64,000 bases of DNA from Roseicyclus marinus (GTDB lineage: Bacteria; Pseudomonadota; Alphaproteobacteria; Rhodobacterales; Rhodobacteraceae). A program made the position numbers and the translations under genes. The DNA lies in contig NZ_JASJOF010000004.1 of NCBI RefSeq assembly GCF_030163795.1, positions 124,001 through 188,000 of the forward strand. The letters are read 5' to 3'. The notes under the pieces are model-generated. The model saw only the letters and a program-made list of their open reading frames with translations. It was not told the origin of the DNA and made no database searches. This document shows, in pieces, positions 44,038-50,702 of the stretch; position 1 is the first letter of the stretch, and each line of letters begins with the position of its first letter.

Positions 44038-45042
44038 ATGACCATCACACTCGGCATCAACGGTTTCGGCCGCATCGGGCGCTGCACGCTGGCCCATATC
44101 ACCGAAGCCGCGCGCAACGATGTGCAGGTGGTCAAGATCAACGCGACGGGCCCGATCGAAACCAACGCGCATCTTCTGAAATACGACAGCGTCCATGGCC
44201 GCTTCGCCGGTGACATCCGCATCAACGGCGACACGATGGATCTCGGGCGCGGCCCGATGAAGGTGTTTTCCACCTACGACCCGGCCGAGCTGGATTGGGA
44301 GGGCTGCGATGTCGTCCTCGAATGTACCGGCAAATTCAACAACCGTGACGCGGCCGCCGTCCACCTGACCCGCGGGGCCAAGCGCGTTCTGGTCTCCGCC
44401 CCCGCCAAGAACGTGGACAAGACCATCGTCTACGGCGTGAACCACCGCGAATTGCTGGCCGAACACCATGTCGTCTCGAACGGGTCGTGCACCACCAACT
44501 GCCTCGCGCCCTTGGCCAAGGTGTTGAACGACGCCATCGGGATCGAACGCGGGATCATGACCACGATCCACAGCTACACCGGCGATCAGCCCACGCTCGA
44601 CCGCCGCCACAAGGATCTCTACCGCGCCCGCGCCGCCGCCATGGCGATGATCCCCACCTCCACCGGCGCCGCCAAGGCCCTCAAGGAGGTTCTGCCCGAG
44701 CTTGAAGGCCGTCTCGACGGTACCGCACTCCGCGTGCCCACGCCCAATGTCTCCTGCGTCGACCTGACCTTCGAGGCGAAAAAGGACGTGACCGTCGCCG
44801 ATGTGAACGAGGTGATCCGCGAAGCCGCCGAAGGTCACATGCGCTCGGTGCTCGCCTATGACCCCGAAGCCAAGGTCTCCATCGACTTCAACCACACCAC
44901 GCATTCCTGCATCTTCGCCCCCGACCAGACCAAGGTTGTGGGCGGCCGCACCGTCCGCGTGCTTGCGTGGTATGACAACGAATGGGGCTTCTCCGCGCGC
45001 ATGGCCGATGTTTCGGCCGCGATGGGGCGTCTGCTGCACTGA
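44038..45042 (+). CDS. Glyceraldehyde-3-phosphate dehydrogenase, GapB-like (gap1)
   Basis: Interconverts glyceraldehyde-3-phosphate and 1,3-bisphosphoglycerate. The 334-residue enzyme has the Rossmann motif [10 protein letters not shown] and catalytic C151 in [11 protein letters not shown]. At the position of the Asp that binds the NAD ribose (D36 in gap2) it has Ala36 (KINATGPIE). Bacillus GapB, which is NADP-dependent and gluconeogenic, has the same NA change, so an NADP preference is likely. Upstream operator-like palindromes and a strong terminator mark it as a single-gene unit. It is paralogous to gap2 5.7 kb away. Confidence 0.94.
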   Translation: MTITLGINGFGRIGRCTLAHITEAARNDVQVVKINATGPIETNAHLLKYDSVHGRFAGDIRINGDTMDLGRGPMKVFSTYDPAELDWEGCDVVLECTGKFNNRDAAAVHLTRGAKRVLVSAPAKNVDKTIVYGVNHRELLAEHHVVSNGSCTTNCLAPLAKVLNDAIGIERGIMTTIHSYTGDQPTLDRRHKDLYRARAAAMAMIPTSTGAAKALKEVLPELEGRLDGTALRVPTPNVSCVDLTFEAKKDVTVADVNEVIREAAEGHMRSVLAYDPEAKVSIDFNHTTHSCIFAPDQTKVVGGRTVRVLAWYDNEWGFSARMADVSAAMGRLLH

Positions 45043-45110: not shown

Positions 45111-45277
45111 GCTGCCTTGATCCAAAACGCCCTCAACCGCAGTTGCAGATGCCTGCATCCCCGGTTCGCGCAGCCCGAACCCAACTCCGGTCCAATGGTG
45201 CGGCGGGGTGGGGGCGGTCATCTCTCCTCCCGTCAAGGCGCCGCATCCCGCCGCGCCAGATGATCGGAGATACCACG

Positions 45278-45532
45278 ATGACCCGCATTCTCGCCGCAAC
45301 CCTCGCCGCAACCCTCGCCCTGTCGGGTGCCGCCATGGCCTCCCCCGACGCGCAGGTGCCGCAGGAAACCCAGACCGCGATCCGCACCCTGCTCGAATCG
45401 CAAGGCTACGAAGTCCGCCAGATCGAGACCGAGGACGGCCTGTTCGAAGCCTATGCCCTGAAGGATGGCGAACGCTACGAGATCTACATCAACGCCGACA
45501 TGCAGATCGTCCGGACCGAGCGCGACGACTGA
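45278..45532 (+). CDS. Secreted PepSY-domain protein
   Basis: An 84-residue protein with a signal peptide (MTRILAATLAATLALSGAAMA). One PepSY_2-like domain follows: VPQETQTAIRTLLESQGYEV, RQIETEDGLFEAYALKDGERYEIY (seen in two parts), ending in acidic DD. PepSY domains are associated with heme/redox membrane proteins. It lies 82 bp upstream of a cytochrome b561 gene, which it probably partners. GGAGATACC precedes ATG 45278. Confidence 0.82.
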   Translation: MTRILAATLAATLALSGAAMASPDAQVPQETQTAIRTLLESQGYEVRQIETEDGLFEAYALKDGERYEIYINADMQIVRTERDD

Positions 45533-45614
45533 TCCCTTCCCCGTCGACGCTTGCGGGGGCGGCCCGGCCCAAGGTGCCGCCCTCGACCTCCCCCACTCCC
45601 CAAGGATCCGAACC

Positions 45615-46154
45615 ATGACACGCCACCCCGTCTGGGACCCGTTCATCCGCCTCTTCCACTGGGCGCTCGTCGCGGGCTTTGTCGCCAATGCGCTCTTCAC
45701 CGATGACGAAAGCACGCTCCACGAATGGGTGGGCTATGCCGTTGTCGGCCTGATCGCCGCCCGGCTGATCTGGGGCCTGATCGGCCCGCGCCACGCCCGC
45801 TTCGCCGATTTCCTGCCCAGCCCGCGCGCCGCCATGCAACAGGTGCAAGACATCGCCACCGGCCGCCACCGCGTCTACCTTGGCCATACGCCGCTTGGGG
45901 CGCTGATGATCCTGAACCTGCTCCTCACGATTCTCCTGATCGGGGTGACGGGCTACATGATGACCACCAATGCCTTTTGGGGCGTCGACTGGGTCGAGGA
46001 AGCGCATGAGGTTCTGGTGGGCTGGGCCGAGATCTCCATCCTCGTCCATGTCGCCGCCGTGATCTGGGAATCGATCCGGACCGGCGTGAATTTGCCGCAA
46101 GCCATGCTCACAGGGGTCAAGTCCGTGCCGGACGATGCTACCATCGTGAAATGA
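45615..46154 (+). CDS. Cytochrome b561-family protein
   Basis: A 179-residue four-helix membrane cytochrome. Candidate heme-ligand histidines are in RLFHWALV, ESTLHEWVGY and ISILVHVAAV. It transfers electrons across the membrane, probably with the PepSY protein as periplasmic partner. The stop codon overlaps the start of the next gene by ATGA, so the two are translationally coupled. The N-terminus (HPVWDPFIRLFHW) is typical of the family. Confidence 0.9.
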   Translation: MTRHPVWDPFIRLFHWALVAGFVANALFTDDESTLHEWVGYAVVGLIAARLIWGLIGPRHARFADFLPSPRAAMQQVQDIATGRHRVYLGHTPLGALMILNLLLTILLIGVTGYMMTTNAFWGVDWVEEAHEVLVGWAEISILVHVAAVIWESIRTGVNLPQAMLTGVKSVPDDATIVK

Positions 46155-46687
46155 TGCGTGGCCTGTCTGAAAATCCCGCGGCCCTTGCCGCCCTCATCCT
46201 CGCGCAGGGCGTCTGCGCGGGGGTGTTCCTCTTCGACGTGGTGCTCGACGGGGGCGAATTGACCCGCCTCTGGCCGCTCGACTGGCATTTCGCGGTCGAG
46301 GCGGCGGCGGTTCTGGGCCTGATCGCGGGCATCGCCTTCGAGATCCGGGTGCTGTTGCGGCTTCTGGCGCGCAAGGCGCATCTGGAACGGCAGGTGTCGA
46401 TGGCCGCCAGCGCGCTTCATGACGTGATCGATGCGCATTTCTTGGCTTGGGGCCTGACCGCCTCGGAACACGACGTGGCATGGTTCACGGTCAAGGGGCT
46501 GCCCATCGCCGAGATCGCCCGCCTGCGCGGATCTGCCGACGGGACGGTGAAAAGCCACCTCAACGCCATCTACCGCAAGGCCGGGGTGACGAACCGGGGC
46601 GAATTGCTCAGCCTGTTGATCGAGGATCTGATGGACGGCGCCGACCGCGCCCCGCCGGCCTCGGCGGCGCAGGAACAAAGCGCCTGA
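46151..46687 (+). CDS. Membrane-anchored LuxR-type HTH regulator
   Basis: A 178-residue protein with two predicted transmembrane segments (about 10-32 and 45-72). A short coiled region and a cytoplasmic LuxR-type HTH (about 103-160: LTASEHDVAWFTVKGLPIAE, GTVKSHLNAIYRKAG) follow. There is no receiver domain. Translational coupling to the cytochrome gene by ATGA suggests a one-component regulator that reads membrane redox state. That is inference; the ligand is unknown. Confidence 0.82.
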   Translation: MMRGLSENPAALAALILAQGVCAGVFLFDVVLDGGELTRLWPLDWHFAVEAAAVLGLIAGIAFEIRVLLRLLARKAHLERQVSMAASALHDVIDAHFLAWGLTASEHDVAWFTVKGLPIAEIARLRGSADGTVKSHLNAIYRKAGVTNRGELLSLLIEDLMDGADRAPPASAAQEQSA

Positions 46688-46771
46688 TGCGCCGTTCCCG
46701 CACCGGGCTCTTTCCCCCCTTTGCCCCGTCTCCCGTCCGTGGCAGGGTCCGCGCGACGTAAGGGGTAGGCC

Positions 46772-46915
46772 ATGAACACGGCAACATCGATCTTTCTGGT
46801 CCTGTGCATCGCGGCCTTTGTCGTCGTGGATGCGACGCTCTTCGATTGGGACCTGTCGCTGGCACTTGCCCGGCGCTTTGCCGGCCTGCTCAACTGGCTC
46901 GCCTTCTGGCGGTAG
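46772..46915 (+). CDS. Small membrane protein, 47 aa
   Basis: A short open frame preceded by an AAGGGG site 7 bp before ATG 46772. It encodes one hydrophobic helix (SIFLVLCIAAFVVVDATLF), an Arg pair, and an amphipathic tail ending LNWLAFWR. It resembles small membrane proteins seen in roseobacters. It lies 84 bp after the HTH gene and may belong to that cluster. Function unknown. Confidence 0.6.
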   Translation: MNTATSIFLVLCIAAFVVVDATLFDWDLSLALARRFAGLLNWLAFWR

Positions 46916-46978: not shown

Positions 46979-47079
46979 CCCGTTGCCCTGCCCCGCGACG
47001 CTGGCTAACACTCCGCTGACGGTGACATGCCCGACCGGCCGGCAACAGGCCGCGCGGCCAACAGCGAAGGATGACATCC

Positions 47080-47925
47080 ATGGCTCAAGATCGGATCGAC
47101 GCCCTGCGTCGCGCGGCACTGGCGCTTTGCGCGGGCCTCTTTGCGGCGGCCCTGCCGCTCGCGGCAGAGGCGCAGGAAAACACGCCCCAGGACCCCCGCC
47201 TGCACATGCCTGGCCAATTGACCGTCGCCACCGGCGACCCGGTCTATCCCCCGTGGATGATGAACAACGACCCCGCCAGCGGCGAAGGCTTCGAGAATGC
47301 GCTCGTCTATGCACTGGCCGAGGAAATGGGCTTCACCCGCGATCAGGTGGTGTGGCTGGGAGAAACCTTCGAACAATCCATCGCACCGGGCGAAAAGGCC
47401 TATGATTTCGCCATCCAGCAAATCAGCGTGACCGAGGCGCGCTCCCAGATCGTTTCCTTCAGCCAGGTCTATTACCAGCCGCAAAAGGCCGTGATCGCGC
47501 TCCCCGGCACGGCAGCCGAAACCGCCACCAGTTTCGAGGATCTGCGCAACCTGCGTTGGGGTGCCGTGATCGGCACGACCGACAATGATTACCTCGTCAA
47601 TGTCTTGGGCATCACCGACGCCGCCATCTACAACGAACAGGTCGATGTCTTCCAGGCGCTTCAGGCAGGCCAGATCGACGCGACGCTCGCGGCCCTTCCC
47701 ACCGCGCTGTTCGTCACCGCCGTGCAGGTGCCCGATGCCTCCATCGTGGCGCTTCTGCCGCCCGACGAGAATGACAACGGCCACGGCCTCCTCTTCGAAT
47801 TCGGCAATCCGCTGGTGTCTTGGGTGGACGAGGCGCTCGGCGCGCTGATCTCCCGCGGCACGGTGGATGATCTGGTCGCAACCTGGCTCGTCGCCGACCC
47901 GGATCTGCCCGTCATCTCCGAATGA
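47080..47925 (+). CDS. Polar amino acid ABC transporter, periplasmic binding protein
   Basis: A 281-residue family 3 solute-binding protein. The start at 47080 sits 8 bp after GAAGGA. A signal peptide (ending EAQE near residue 29) is followed by LTVATGDPVYPPWMM, GFENALVYALAEEMG and an AIQQISVTEARSQIVSFSQV motif typical of amino-acid binders. It delivers substrate to the permease encoded next (ATGA overlap). Specificity within the polar amino acid group is not readable. Confidence 0.92.
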   Translation: MAQDRIDALRRAALALCAGLFAAALPLAAEAQENTPQDPRLHMPGQLTVATGDPVYPPWMMNNDPASGEGFENALVYALAEEMGFTRDQVVWLGETFEQSIAPGEKAYDFAIQQISVTEARSQIVSFSQVYYQPQKAVIALPGTAAETATSFEDLRNLRWGAVIGTTDNDYLVNVLGITDAAIYNEQVDVFQALQAGQIDATLAALPTALFVTAVQVPDASIVALLPPDENDNGHGLLFEFGNPLVSWVDEALGALISRGTVDDLVATWLVADPDLPVISE

Positions 47926-48791
47926 CCGACGGACCGCACGACACGGACAGACGTCGGGGCCCGCCCCCGCCGCCGCCCGGACGCGGCTTCGACTGGCGCG
48001 CGGCGGCACTTCCCTCGGCCATCAGCGCGGCGAGCATCCTGATCGTCTTCGGCGCGCTGGCATGGGCCGTCACTTCCGCCGAACAATGGCCGCGCATCCG
48101 GCTGCAATTCTTCAACCTCGACGCCATGATCGCGGCCTTTCCCCGCGTGCTGCAAGGTTTCTGGGTCAATATCCAGGTCTGGTTGACGGTCCTTGTCTGC
48201 ATCCTTCTCTGGGCGCTGGCACTCGCCATCCTGCGCAGCTTGCGCGCGCCATGGTGCGCGCCCTTCCGCCTGATGGTGGTGATCTACATCGACCTCTTTC
48301 GCGGCGTGCCGGTCCTCCTCCTTGTCCTTCTCTTCGGCTTCGGCATCCCGGCGCTGAACCTGCCCGGTCTGCCCAATTCGGGCCTCTTCTGGGGCGGGGT
48401 CGCGATGGTGCTCAGCTACGCGGCTTACGTGGCCGAGATCTACCGCTCGGGCATCGACGCGGTGCATGAGGGCCAGCGCGCCGCCGCCAAATCCCTTGGC
48501 CTGACCGAATGGCAGACCCTGCGCTACGCGATCTTGCCGCAAGCTTTGCGCAACGTCGTGCCAGCGCTGATGAACATCGTCGTGGCGCTACAAAAGGACG
48601 TGGCGCTCTTGTCGGTCATCGGCGTGCGCGACGCGGTGCGCGAGGCACAGATCTACACCGCCACCACCTTCAACTATTCCTCCCTCATTGTCGCGGCGGG
48701 CCTGTTCCTTCTGGCGACCATCCCCATGGCGCGGCTGGCCGATTACCTCACGCGGCGTGACCGGATGCGCCGCCTGCAGATGGCGGGTTGA
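47922..48791 (+). CDS. Polar amino acid ABC transporter permease (HisM/GlnP type)
   Basis: A 289-residue permease with a cytoplasmic Pro-rich N-terminus (PPPPPPGRG) and about five helices. The ATPase-contacting EAA loop is YRSGIDAVHEGQRAAAKSLG. A single permease gene suggests a homodimer. It overlaps the binding-protein gene by 4 bp and is followed 3 bp later by the ATPase gene. Confidence 0.93.
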   Translation: MTDGPHDTDRRRGPPPPPPGRGFDWRAAALPSAISAASILIVFGALAWAVTSAEQWPRIRLQFFNLDAMIAAFPRVLQGFWVNIQVWLTVLVCILLWALALAILRSLRAPWCAPFRLMVVIYIDLFRGVPVLLLVLLFGFGIPALNLPGLPNSGLFWGGVAMVLSYAAYVAEIYRSGIDAVHEGQRAAAKSLGLTEWQTLRYAILPQALRNVVPALMNIVVALQKDVALLSVIGVRDAVREAQIYTATTFNYSSLIVAAGLFLLATIPMARLADYLTRRDRMRRLQMAG

Positions 48792-48794
48792 TCC

Positions 48795-49550
48795 ATGACG
48801 CCCCCGAAACCCATGATCGAGATCGACGAGGTCACCAAGTATTTCGGCCAGAAACTGGTCCTCGACCGGGTGTCGCTGACCGTGAACCGGCACGAAACCA
48901 TCTGCCTCATCGGGGCGTCCGGCTCGGGCAAATCCACGCTCCTGCGCTGCGTGAACCGGCTGGTCGAGCATGATTACGGCACGATCCGCCTTGATGGTGT
49001 CCCCAACACCGACCCGAGCTTTGGCAAGACCGGCCTGCAACGGCGCACGGGCATCGTCTTTCAGTCCTACAACCTCTTTCCGCACATGAATGTGCTCGAC
49101 AACATCACGCTCGCGCCCCGCCGCGTGCATGGCGTCCCCCGGCCCGAGGCCGAGGACCGCGGCCGCGCCATCCTTGCGCGCTTCGGGATGGACGGTTTCG
49201 CCGGGTCCTATCCCGAACAGCTGTCCGGCGGGCAACAGCAGCGCGTCGCCATCGCCCGCGCGCTGATGACCCGCCCCGATGTGCTCCTGCTGGACGAGAT
49301 CACGGCGGCGCTCGACCCCGAACTGGTGGGCGAGGTCCTGTCGATCATCCGCGGCCTCAAGGACGAGGGGATGACGATGATGATCGTCACCCATGAAATG
49401 GCCTTCGCCCGCGATTGCGCCGACCGCGTGGCCTTCCTCGCCGATGGCGAAATCCTCGAGATCGACCACCCTGAGCGGCTCTTCGCCAACTCCGCCCACG
49501 ACCGCACCCGGCGTTTCCTGCAACGCATCACCCAAGGCGGGCGGCTCTGA
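48795..49550 (+). CDS. Polar amino acid ABC transporter ATPase (GlnQ/HisP type)
   Basis: A 251-residue nucleotide-binding subunit. Walker A GASGSGKSTLLR, signature LSGGQQQRVAIARAL, Walker B VLLLDEITAALDPE and the switch His in IVTHEMAFARD are intact. It completes the binding protein-permease-ATPase operon. The substrate is likely a polar amino acid. Confidence 0.94.
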   Translation: MTPPKPMIEIDEVTKYFGQKLVLDRVSLTVNRHETICLIGASGSGKSTLLRCVNRLVEHDYGTIRLDGVPNTDPSFGKTGLQRRTGIVFQSYNLFPHMNVLDNITLAPRRVHGVPRPEAEDRGRAILARFGMDGFAGSYPEQLSGGQQQRVAIARALMTRPDVLLLDEITAALDPELVGEVLSIIRGLKDEGMTMMIVTHEMAFARDCADRVAFLADGEILEIDHPERLFANSAHDRTRRFLQRITQGGRL

Positions 49551-49697: not shown

Positions 49698-50702
49698 ATG
49701 GCCGTCAAAGTCGCCATCAACGGATTTGGACGCATCGGACGCAACGTGCTGCGCGCCATCGTCGAAACGGGCCGCACGGATATCGAGGTGGTCGCGATCA
49801 ACGACCTCGGCCCGGTCGAGACCAACGCCCATCTCCTGCGCTACGACAGCGTCCACGGCCGCTTTCCCGCCACCGTGACCACGACCGAGACGACCATCGA
49901 CGTGGGCCGCGGCCCGATCGAGGTGACGGCGATCCGCAATCCCGCCGACCTGCCCTGGTCCCATGTCGACATCGTGCTCGAATGCACCGGCATCTTCACC
50001 GACAAGGACAAGGCGCAGATCCATCTCGAGAACGGGGCAAGCCGCGTCCTCGTCTCGGCCCCCTCCAAGGGCGCGGACAAGACCATCGTCTATGGCGTGA
50101 ACCACAAGACGTTGACCTCGGCCGACCTGATCGTCTCGAACGCCTCCTGCACCACCAATTGCCTCGCCCCCGTCGCGCATGTGCTCCACAAGGCCATCGG
50201 CATCGAGCGCGGCTTCATGACCACGATCCACAGCTACACGGGCGACCAGCCGACGCTCGATACCATGCACAAGGATCTCTACCGCGCGCGCGCCGCGGCG
50301 CTCTCGATGATCCCGACCTCGACCGGCGCGGCCAAGGCCGTGGGGCTCGTCCTGCCCGAATTGAACGGAAAGCTCGACGGCGTGGCGATCCGCGTGCCCA
50401 CCCCCAATGTCTCGGTCGTCGACCTGACTTTCGAGGCCGCGCGCGACACGAGCGCAGAGGAAATCAACGCCGCCATCCATGCCGCAGCCGCCGATGGCCC
50501 CCTCAAGGGCATCCTCGGCGTCACCGATGCGCCGCTCGTCAGCAGCGATTTCAACCACGATCCCCATTCCTCCATCTTCGCCACCGACCAGACCAAGGAG
50601 ATGACCGGCAACCTCTGCCGCGTGCTCAGCTGGTATGACAACGAATGGGGTTTTTCGTGCCGCATGGCCGATACCGCCGTCGAGATGGGCAAGCACCTGT
50701 AA
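49698..50702 (+). CDS. gap: Glyceraldehyde-3-phosphate dehydrogenase, NAD type (gap2)
   Basis: A 334-residue GAPDH with [10 protein letters not shown], catalytic C151 in [11 protein letters not shown], and D36 in [10 protein letters not shown], which favours NAD. It has the same length as gap1 and shares most motifs (for example [15 protein letters not shown]). It is likely the main glycolytic enzyme, with gap1 the NADP-linked one. A palindromic operator lies upstream. Confidence 0.95.

Follow-up and report, generated by a model that had tools for sequence, protein, structure and literature searches.

In a 64 000-nucleotide stretch of the Roseicyclus marinus genome (contig NZ_JASJOF010000004.1, positions 124001–188000; hereafter the window), a secreted PepSY protein, a cytochrome b561 and a LuxR-type regulator anchored in the membrane are encoded side by side. 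The three genes form what the genomes compared here indicate is a conserved and travelling unit, its order being kept in several unrelated chromosomal places. We favour, with about even confidence, the explanation that this trio is a self-contained, PepSY-paired one-component membrane switch that would control its own operon, with the b561 as its output. The sensing, the DNA binding and the direction of control in this proposal are all inferred from sequence.

Gene organization of the locus

The three genes are encoded on the plus strand. The first (45278–45532) specifies a secreted PepSY_2 protein of 84 residues (PF13670, 2.8e-15) with a signal-like N-terminal segment and a single, N-terminal hydropathy peak. 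It is followed by a four-helix, putatively diheme cytochrome b561 of 179 residues (Ni_hydr_CYTB; 45615–46154; PF01292, 1.5e-21) and by a membrane-anchored one-component regulator of the LuxR/NarL type with 178 residues (46151–46687; PF00196 GerE, 7.5e-6), the start codon of which overlaps the b561 stop codon in the tetranucleotide ATGA (46151–46154). Hydropathy analysis gives four peaks for b561 and two for the regulator, so that the arrangement originally described, a PepSY protein and a four-helix b561 with a two-helix LuxR-type regulator coupled by ATGA, is borne out by the reading frames, the Pfam matches and the hydropathy profiles. Neither the proteins of the unit nor the next downstream gene contain a kinase or receiver domain, in agreement with the original view that the unit is unlike a two-component system. 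Among named relatives, the regulator is closest to those of Roseicyclus sp. (Rhodobacteraceae in the wide sense). A sigma-70-like promoter was searched for in the trio region and none was found.

The trio region is flanked by two gap genes (44038–45042 and 49698–50702), the second of which is separated from it by a 47-residue open reading frame with one hydropathy peak (46772–46915, plus strand) and then an amino-acid-type ABC transporter. The 47-residue membrane peptide had been counted as a member of the unit, an assignment that we withdraw: in 30 loci with homologues of the peptide (∼3 kb each), a gap gene is present in 25 and trio genes in one, which is that of the own genome. The peptide thus lies outside the trio and goes with the gap gene cluster. 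A conserved gap-gene companion, it is present in 57 of 120 family genomes, and in several loci it is located ∼80–140 bp 5′ of gapB. The ABC transporter (47071–49550) separates the peptide from gapB in the window and in loci L009–L011 and looks like a recent insertion, as it is absent from L012 and L013.

Conservation and mobility of the trio

Conserved gene order had been set beforehand as a test of the unit, and it is observed. Among the best 66 of the b561 matches listed (E ≤ 5.6e-36, 295 family genomes), 64 have the PepSY gene directly upstream and 53 have the regulator gene directly downstream; both partners are present in 52, PepSY only in 12, the regulator only in one and neither in one. 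Judged by these counts, the grouping PepSY–b561–regulator far exceeds chance. The surroundings of the trio were compared in 72 loci with non-identical regulators, in which marker genes were checked with Pfam and from which re-fetched loci were also left out. The trio is found beside gap genes in 23 loci, in an ssb/slt context in 17 (flanked by ssb and by a gene for a lytic transglycosylase, or adjoining one of the two), beside cytochrome bc1 genes in three, in an hpt/amt context in one and elsewhere in 28. Loci with a regulator identical to that of another locus (9–10 loci; nine pairs in the first sample) were excluded from the tree, motif and context counts. Trios are not confined to the family: Novispirillum and a Kordiimonadales genome, for instance, contain one, and 16 of 337 genomes in a class-wide draw contain a regulator match at E ≤ 1e-15. 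An apparent b561–regulator fusion in Salipiger mucosus (L016, 4440–5525) was not counted as such, since its b561 is split over two frames; the split reflects either an error in sequencing or a genuine lesion.

Partners of the regulator

A profile search identified 100 regulator homologues in 67 of 110 family genomes. Twenty-seven of these are encoded directly downstream of b561 and 73 are not, and 28 of the 67 regulator-bearing genomes lack a b561 match at E ≤ 1e-10. The proposal that b561 is the obligate sensor of the regulator thus finds no support. What had been named in advance as telling against it, a regulator occurring mainly without the cytochrome, is the case for the regulator family as a whole, whereas the regulators of the window's own subfamily are nearly always found beside b561.

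The 73 regulators without b561 have a PepSY reading frame upstream on the same strand in 58 cases, many of them with two such frames; the contig ends in two cases and there is none in 13. All 92 matches to the PepSY profiles in the 73 tested loci are located upstream of the regulator and on its strand, and 1,273 ORFs from 45 control loci yielded no match to the same profiles. The steady partner of the regulator family is thus mostly a PepSY protein, with or without b561. PepSY is not strictly needed, because 13 of the 73 b561-free regulators have neither partner. Seven orphan regulators without PepSY and b561 were present in the first sample (L089 is also among the 13), and five of them are located where 17 trios are, in the ssb/slt context. 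The gap between ssb and the regulator is 175–237 bp in four of these five, which leaves no room for missing genes, and in L079 it is shorter. Similarly, the hpt/amt place is common to an orphan (L032) and a trio (L035).

The PepSY proteins of b561-free operons, where read, mostly carry long Asp/Glu-rich or Gly/Ser/Asp-rich C-terminal tails. Genes for such acid-tailed PepSY proteins are common in the family, and the papers retrieved contain no description of them. The own genome contains a second system of this type, with a regulator paralogue (L067, 4787–5287, minus strand) and two PepSY-like reading frames upstream. The latter (L067, 5312–6225, minus strand; G000 contig 21) have long poly-Asp tails and adjoin a trpB-like gene; the acidic PepSY proteins of this genome match no Pfam family at E ≤ 0.01 and are named from an in-house profile and a pattern. 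Assignment of PepSY by PDB sequence was discarded, as the best matches were weak and were to designed proteins. At L163/L173 (G294:C4:247070-248070) two membrane LuxR homologues are arranged face to face, one with an acid-tailed reading frame upstream.

Three loci (L135, L138 and L145) contain the same PepSY–b561 pair as the trio (PF13670 and PF01292) beside a Pfam-confirmed OmpR-type response regulator and kinase. Depending on the locus, then, the same output pair appears to answer to a kinase system or to a one-protein switch.

The predicted operator

The predicted operator of the window, CTNAACCNNRGTTNNAG, is a conserved inverted repeat at 45132–45148 (plus strand), 129 bp 5′ of the PepSY ATG. 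When chance 8-mers and palindromes in the upstream regions were ranked without a model, GC-rich words prevailed; the CCTGAACC word provided the lead. The window site CTCAACCGCAGTTGCAG belongs to a motif 100–199 bp from the PepSY start. Using a matrix trained on 35 of the 70 trio upstreams, 48 of the 70 score at least 8.6 (the 99th percentile of shuffled sequences is 7.5), a statistic that, like the other motif statistics given here, is optimistic because the upstreams are mutually related and the shuffles are mononucleotide. By class, the motif is present in 47 of 54 rows of the main class and in one of 16 rows of the diverged class (above 7.5). The diverged trio regulators, a class that also includes rows L142 and L143, which are absent from the motif set, differ in the helix–turn–helix (K134R, N138A/T and R142A), and their upstreams mostly lack the site, as would be expected if the helix–turn–helix reads it. 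In 17 regulator-less PepSY–b561 pairs (L121, L124, L126–L139 and L145) the trio site scores above 8 once, and in none of the three kinase-associated loci.

The b561-free acid-tailed operons carry a palindrome of their own, CATAAACCNNGGTTTATG, with 21 of 26 at 11.8 or above (trained on 14) and a summed score of 384, compared with a maximum of 201 when the procedure was repeated 40 times on shuffled sequence. The core AACC-NN-RGTT is common to this palindrome and the trio site. The acid-class matrix also recognizes sites in the trio class, with 18 of the 70 trio upstreams at 8.0 or above (1% expected); conversely, the trio matrix scores at least 9 in seven of 26 acid-class loci, 869–1675 bp upstream of the regulator, and an eighth locus has a match downstream (shuffled control at the same threshold, five matches in 172 kb). 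The own-genome paralogue has a site that matches poorly (acid matrix, 5.6; trio matrix, 14.1). Sequence repeats in front of related genes may be conserved for reasons unrelated to binding.

The exact window site has one match in the 3.62 Mb genome, the one in the window, and for this reason the regulator probably serves its own operon. A larger regulon was considered and, for the exact site, rejected; with one mismatch allowed there are seven matches versus 13 for the reversed pattern. Elsewhere in the own genome, a perfect copy of the acid-class operator, the palindrome TAAACC-NN-GGTTTA (L154, ∼1501–1514; G000:C18:397386-397399) is located ∼90 bp 5′ of a ferredoxin-like reading frame, which from its upstream sequence is a possible second target of the paralogue.

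The regulator and its transmembrane hairpin

The match of the regulator to PF00196 (25.9 bits) is narrowly above the cut-off of 23.5 and assigns it a GerE helix–turn–helix (residues 102–160; 46454–46630, plus strand), which is corroborated by structural matches. The AF2 model (pLDDT 87.6) consists of two helices (residues 9–37 and 45–100) followed by the helix–turn–helix (residues 104–162). The latter matches the helix–turn–helix domains of NarL, StyR and RcsB with Z ∼10; these matches are taken up by the helix–turn–helix, and the hairpin is barely probed by them. No Pfam or NCBIfam match above the cut-off indicates a receiver or autoinducer-binding N-terminal domain, residues 1–100 being two long helices, and the score for the LIC13292 family regulator (NF047608) is 34.1 bits compared with a cut-off of 200.

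The transmembrane hairpin (46205–46300, plus strand) contains a candidate sensor site consisting of Q19, C22, F26, D29, D33, H46 and E50, selected by column conservation in 107 regulators of five classes. Q19 (97%), C22 (89%), F26 (93%), D29 (89%) and E50 (97%) are conserved throughout; D33 is present in 98% of the main trio class and in 71% of the small partnerless class (Glu in 28%), and H46 in 75–94% outside the acid-tailed class. In the acid-tailed class D33 is mostly replaced by Ser, and W43 and E47 are invariant. In a quick tree, in which the class was set by hand after reading the frames for L016, L082, L087, L093 and L098, the acid-tailed class forms one side of one branch (support 93) and the trio rows do not form one group (seven changes).

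The signature Q..C..F..D...D/H...E is conserved in all subfamilies, also in those without b561 and PepSY, and is kept in the orphan regulators. The regulator had been described as having no sensor of its own. We no longer retain that description, because a regulator with such a conserved signature in its membrane helices cannot simply be taken as sensorless. In the model, D29 and D33 are near the end of helix 1, and H46 and E50 are at the start of helix 2. The D...D pair facing H...E on two helices looks, in this model, like a four-ligand metal or proton site. The conserved residues could instead serve dimerization or helix packing.

These observations bear on a rival explanation in which the regulator alone senses a metal ion, pH, lipid or disulfide state through its hairpin, and PepSY and b561 are targets only, with PepSY serving the cytochrome as its chaperone or as a carrier of metal. 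The conservation of the hairpin in every class including the orphans, the 13 b561-free regulators without PepSY and the single predicted operator at a single operon all argue for this explanation. It leaves unexplained, however, why PepSY, often duplicated, is retained in 58 of the 73 cases without b561, and it does not account for the published precedent of a PepSY protein acting on a kinase (see below). We consider it a rather unlikely account, and prefer the switch in which PepSY is paired with the regulator.

The cytochrome b561

The cytochrome matches PF01292 with 77.4 bits (cut-off 30.1), and its four hydropathy peaks and helical model (pLDDT 87) support its assignment to this family. 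H15, H36, H131 and H145 are conserved in 94–95% of 103 rows, H91 is also conserved, and the conserved histidines are invariant in 25 rows; from this pattern, the first four would make up two haem-ligand pairs. The best fold match found by Foldseek is FdnI (1kqf_C; E = 1e-3, TM 0.74), other matches being noise. FdnI is the quinone-linked diheme subunit of formate dehydrogenase N. We also considered E. coli CybB, a superoxide:quinone oxidoreductase, which like the trio b561 is a small four-helix b-type cytochrome. A search by PDB sequence gave no link to it, the b561 profile matching no PDB chain at E ≤ 1, and the best fold match is to FdnI. CybB is also mentioned in PMC9113575 and PMC11869295, in the parts cited. 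Three trios (L110, L114 and L119) are located immediately downstream of cytochrome bc1 genes (Pfam-checked in L114 and L119), which hints at a connection with the quinone pool; together with the FdnI-like fold, this makes a role for b561 at the quinone pool plausible. A b561 of R. sphaeroides, RSP_0820, is described as being under PrrA and FnrL control (PMC4263372, in the part cited).

The cytochrome is the sensor in a second rival explanation, namely that b561 senses membrane redox and signals by direct contact to a regulator without an input of its own. The adjacency of the two genes (53 of the best 66 b561 matches listed, representing the window's subfamily), their ATGA coupling in the window and the proximity of three trios to bc1 genes argue for it, as do D33, E64 and R66, residues that the main trio class conserves strongly and the acidic class without b561 does not. 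Against it, only 27 of the 100 regulators follow b561 and 28 of the 67 regulator-bearing genomes are without a b561 match; the five partnerless regulators in the ssb/slt place keep the hairpin motif; and PepSY–b561 pairs exist without the regulator (12 of the best 66 matches listed) or beside a two-component system. We regard the cytochrome as sensor as improbable and as a weaker reading than the PepSY-paired switch. An ordinary operon, in which PepSY and b561 are an electron-transfer pair under a local regulator with a cytoplasmic signal and an incidental membrane anchor, would fit the operon order and the single predicted operator, but we find this very hard to credit, as polar and acidic residues that hardly vary, located at the periplasmic end of both membrane helices, are unlikely to be there by accident.

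Proposed mechanism

In the PepSY-paired switch as we envisage it, the regulator would be an inner-membrane protein whose short loop faces the periplasm and whose helix–turn–helix is cytoplasmic. As a dimer, it would bind the repeat at 45132–45148 and control its own operon, probably its main or only target. The signal would be the state of the envelope, read by the TM1/TM2 hairpin through D29, D33, H46 and E50 together with Q19 and C22, which makes the hairpin a candidate site for a metal ion, a proton or a redox event. The secreted PepSY protein may tune the regulator from the periplasmic face, as DbfQ does the kinase DbfS. The b561 would be the regulated effector, a diheme quinone-linked cytochrome passing electrons to or from the periplasmic side, and might in turn influence the signal. 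For the PepSY–b561 pair of other lineages, a two-component system would act as the regulator instead.

More tentatively, the family may represent a widespread class of alphaproteobacterial one-component membrane receptors, in which PepSY would be the periplasmic signal protein and the intramembrane D...D/H...E site of the hairpin the receiver, a metal or redox state of the envelope being conveyed to DNA through one protein of 178 residues. Such a class could have radiated into a b561-controlling branch and a branch with pairs of acid-tailed PepSY proteins, the two using different variants of a single inverted-repeat operator.

Comparison with known systems and implications

The nearest described systems are the PepSY/two-component modules, DbfQRS in Vibrio cholerae and the PepSY–BqsS neighbourhood in Pseudomonas aeruginosa, in which the PepSY protein DbfQ is reported to bind the sensory domain of the kinase DbfS (PMC12714742, in the part cited). 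As in DbfQRS, a small secreted PepSY protein, sometimes two, is encoded upstream of and together with a membrane signalling protein, the activity of which is set by PepSY in the published case. Unlike DbfQRS, the trio has a single membrane-anchored LuxR-type protein in place of a kinase and response regulator, a b561 gene in one subfamily and long acidic PepSY tails in the other. The main text of that paper mentions neither LuxR nor a cytochrome. A search of one limited literature collection retrieved no description of a PepSY–b561–LuxR unit, nor of b561 with PepSY in Rhodobacter.

The LuxR regulators DadR, HcdR and CadR of Coriobacteriia (Eggerthella), described as having 10–12 TM helices (PMC9734109, in the part cited), resemble the trio regulator, when compared by description, in combining an N-terminal membrane domain with a C-terminal LuxR helix–turn–helix and in being local regulators of neighbouring genes. 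They differ in having 10–12 helices and in being induced by substrate, the trio regulator having only two helices with a short loop and being accompanied by PepSY. The b561 LcoA, which like the trio b561 is encoded with a secreted partner, is induced by superoxide stress; its partner BcnA is a lipocalin and not a PepSY protein, and the portion of that report used here makes no mention of a membrane regulator (PMC9113575). The trio is best called a new, kinase-free variant of the PepSY signalling modules.

Recent work has shown PepSY proteins to control how active a sensor kinase is, and here they appear to be tied to a kinase-free, membrane-anchored transcription factor encoded in 67 of 110 sampled family genomes. 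If the proposal is correct, the role of PepSY as a signal protein of the periplasm would be broader, the uncharacterized b561–PepSY pair would gain a switch of its own together with a predicted DNA site, and the regulator would provide a simple and testable case of a two-helix membrane anchor passing an envelope signal to DNA.
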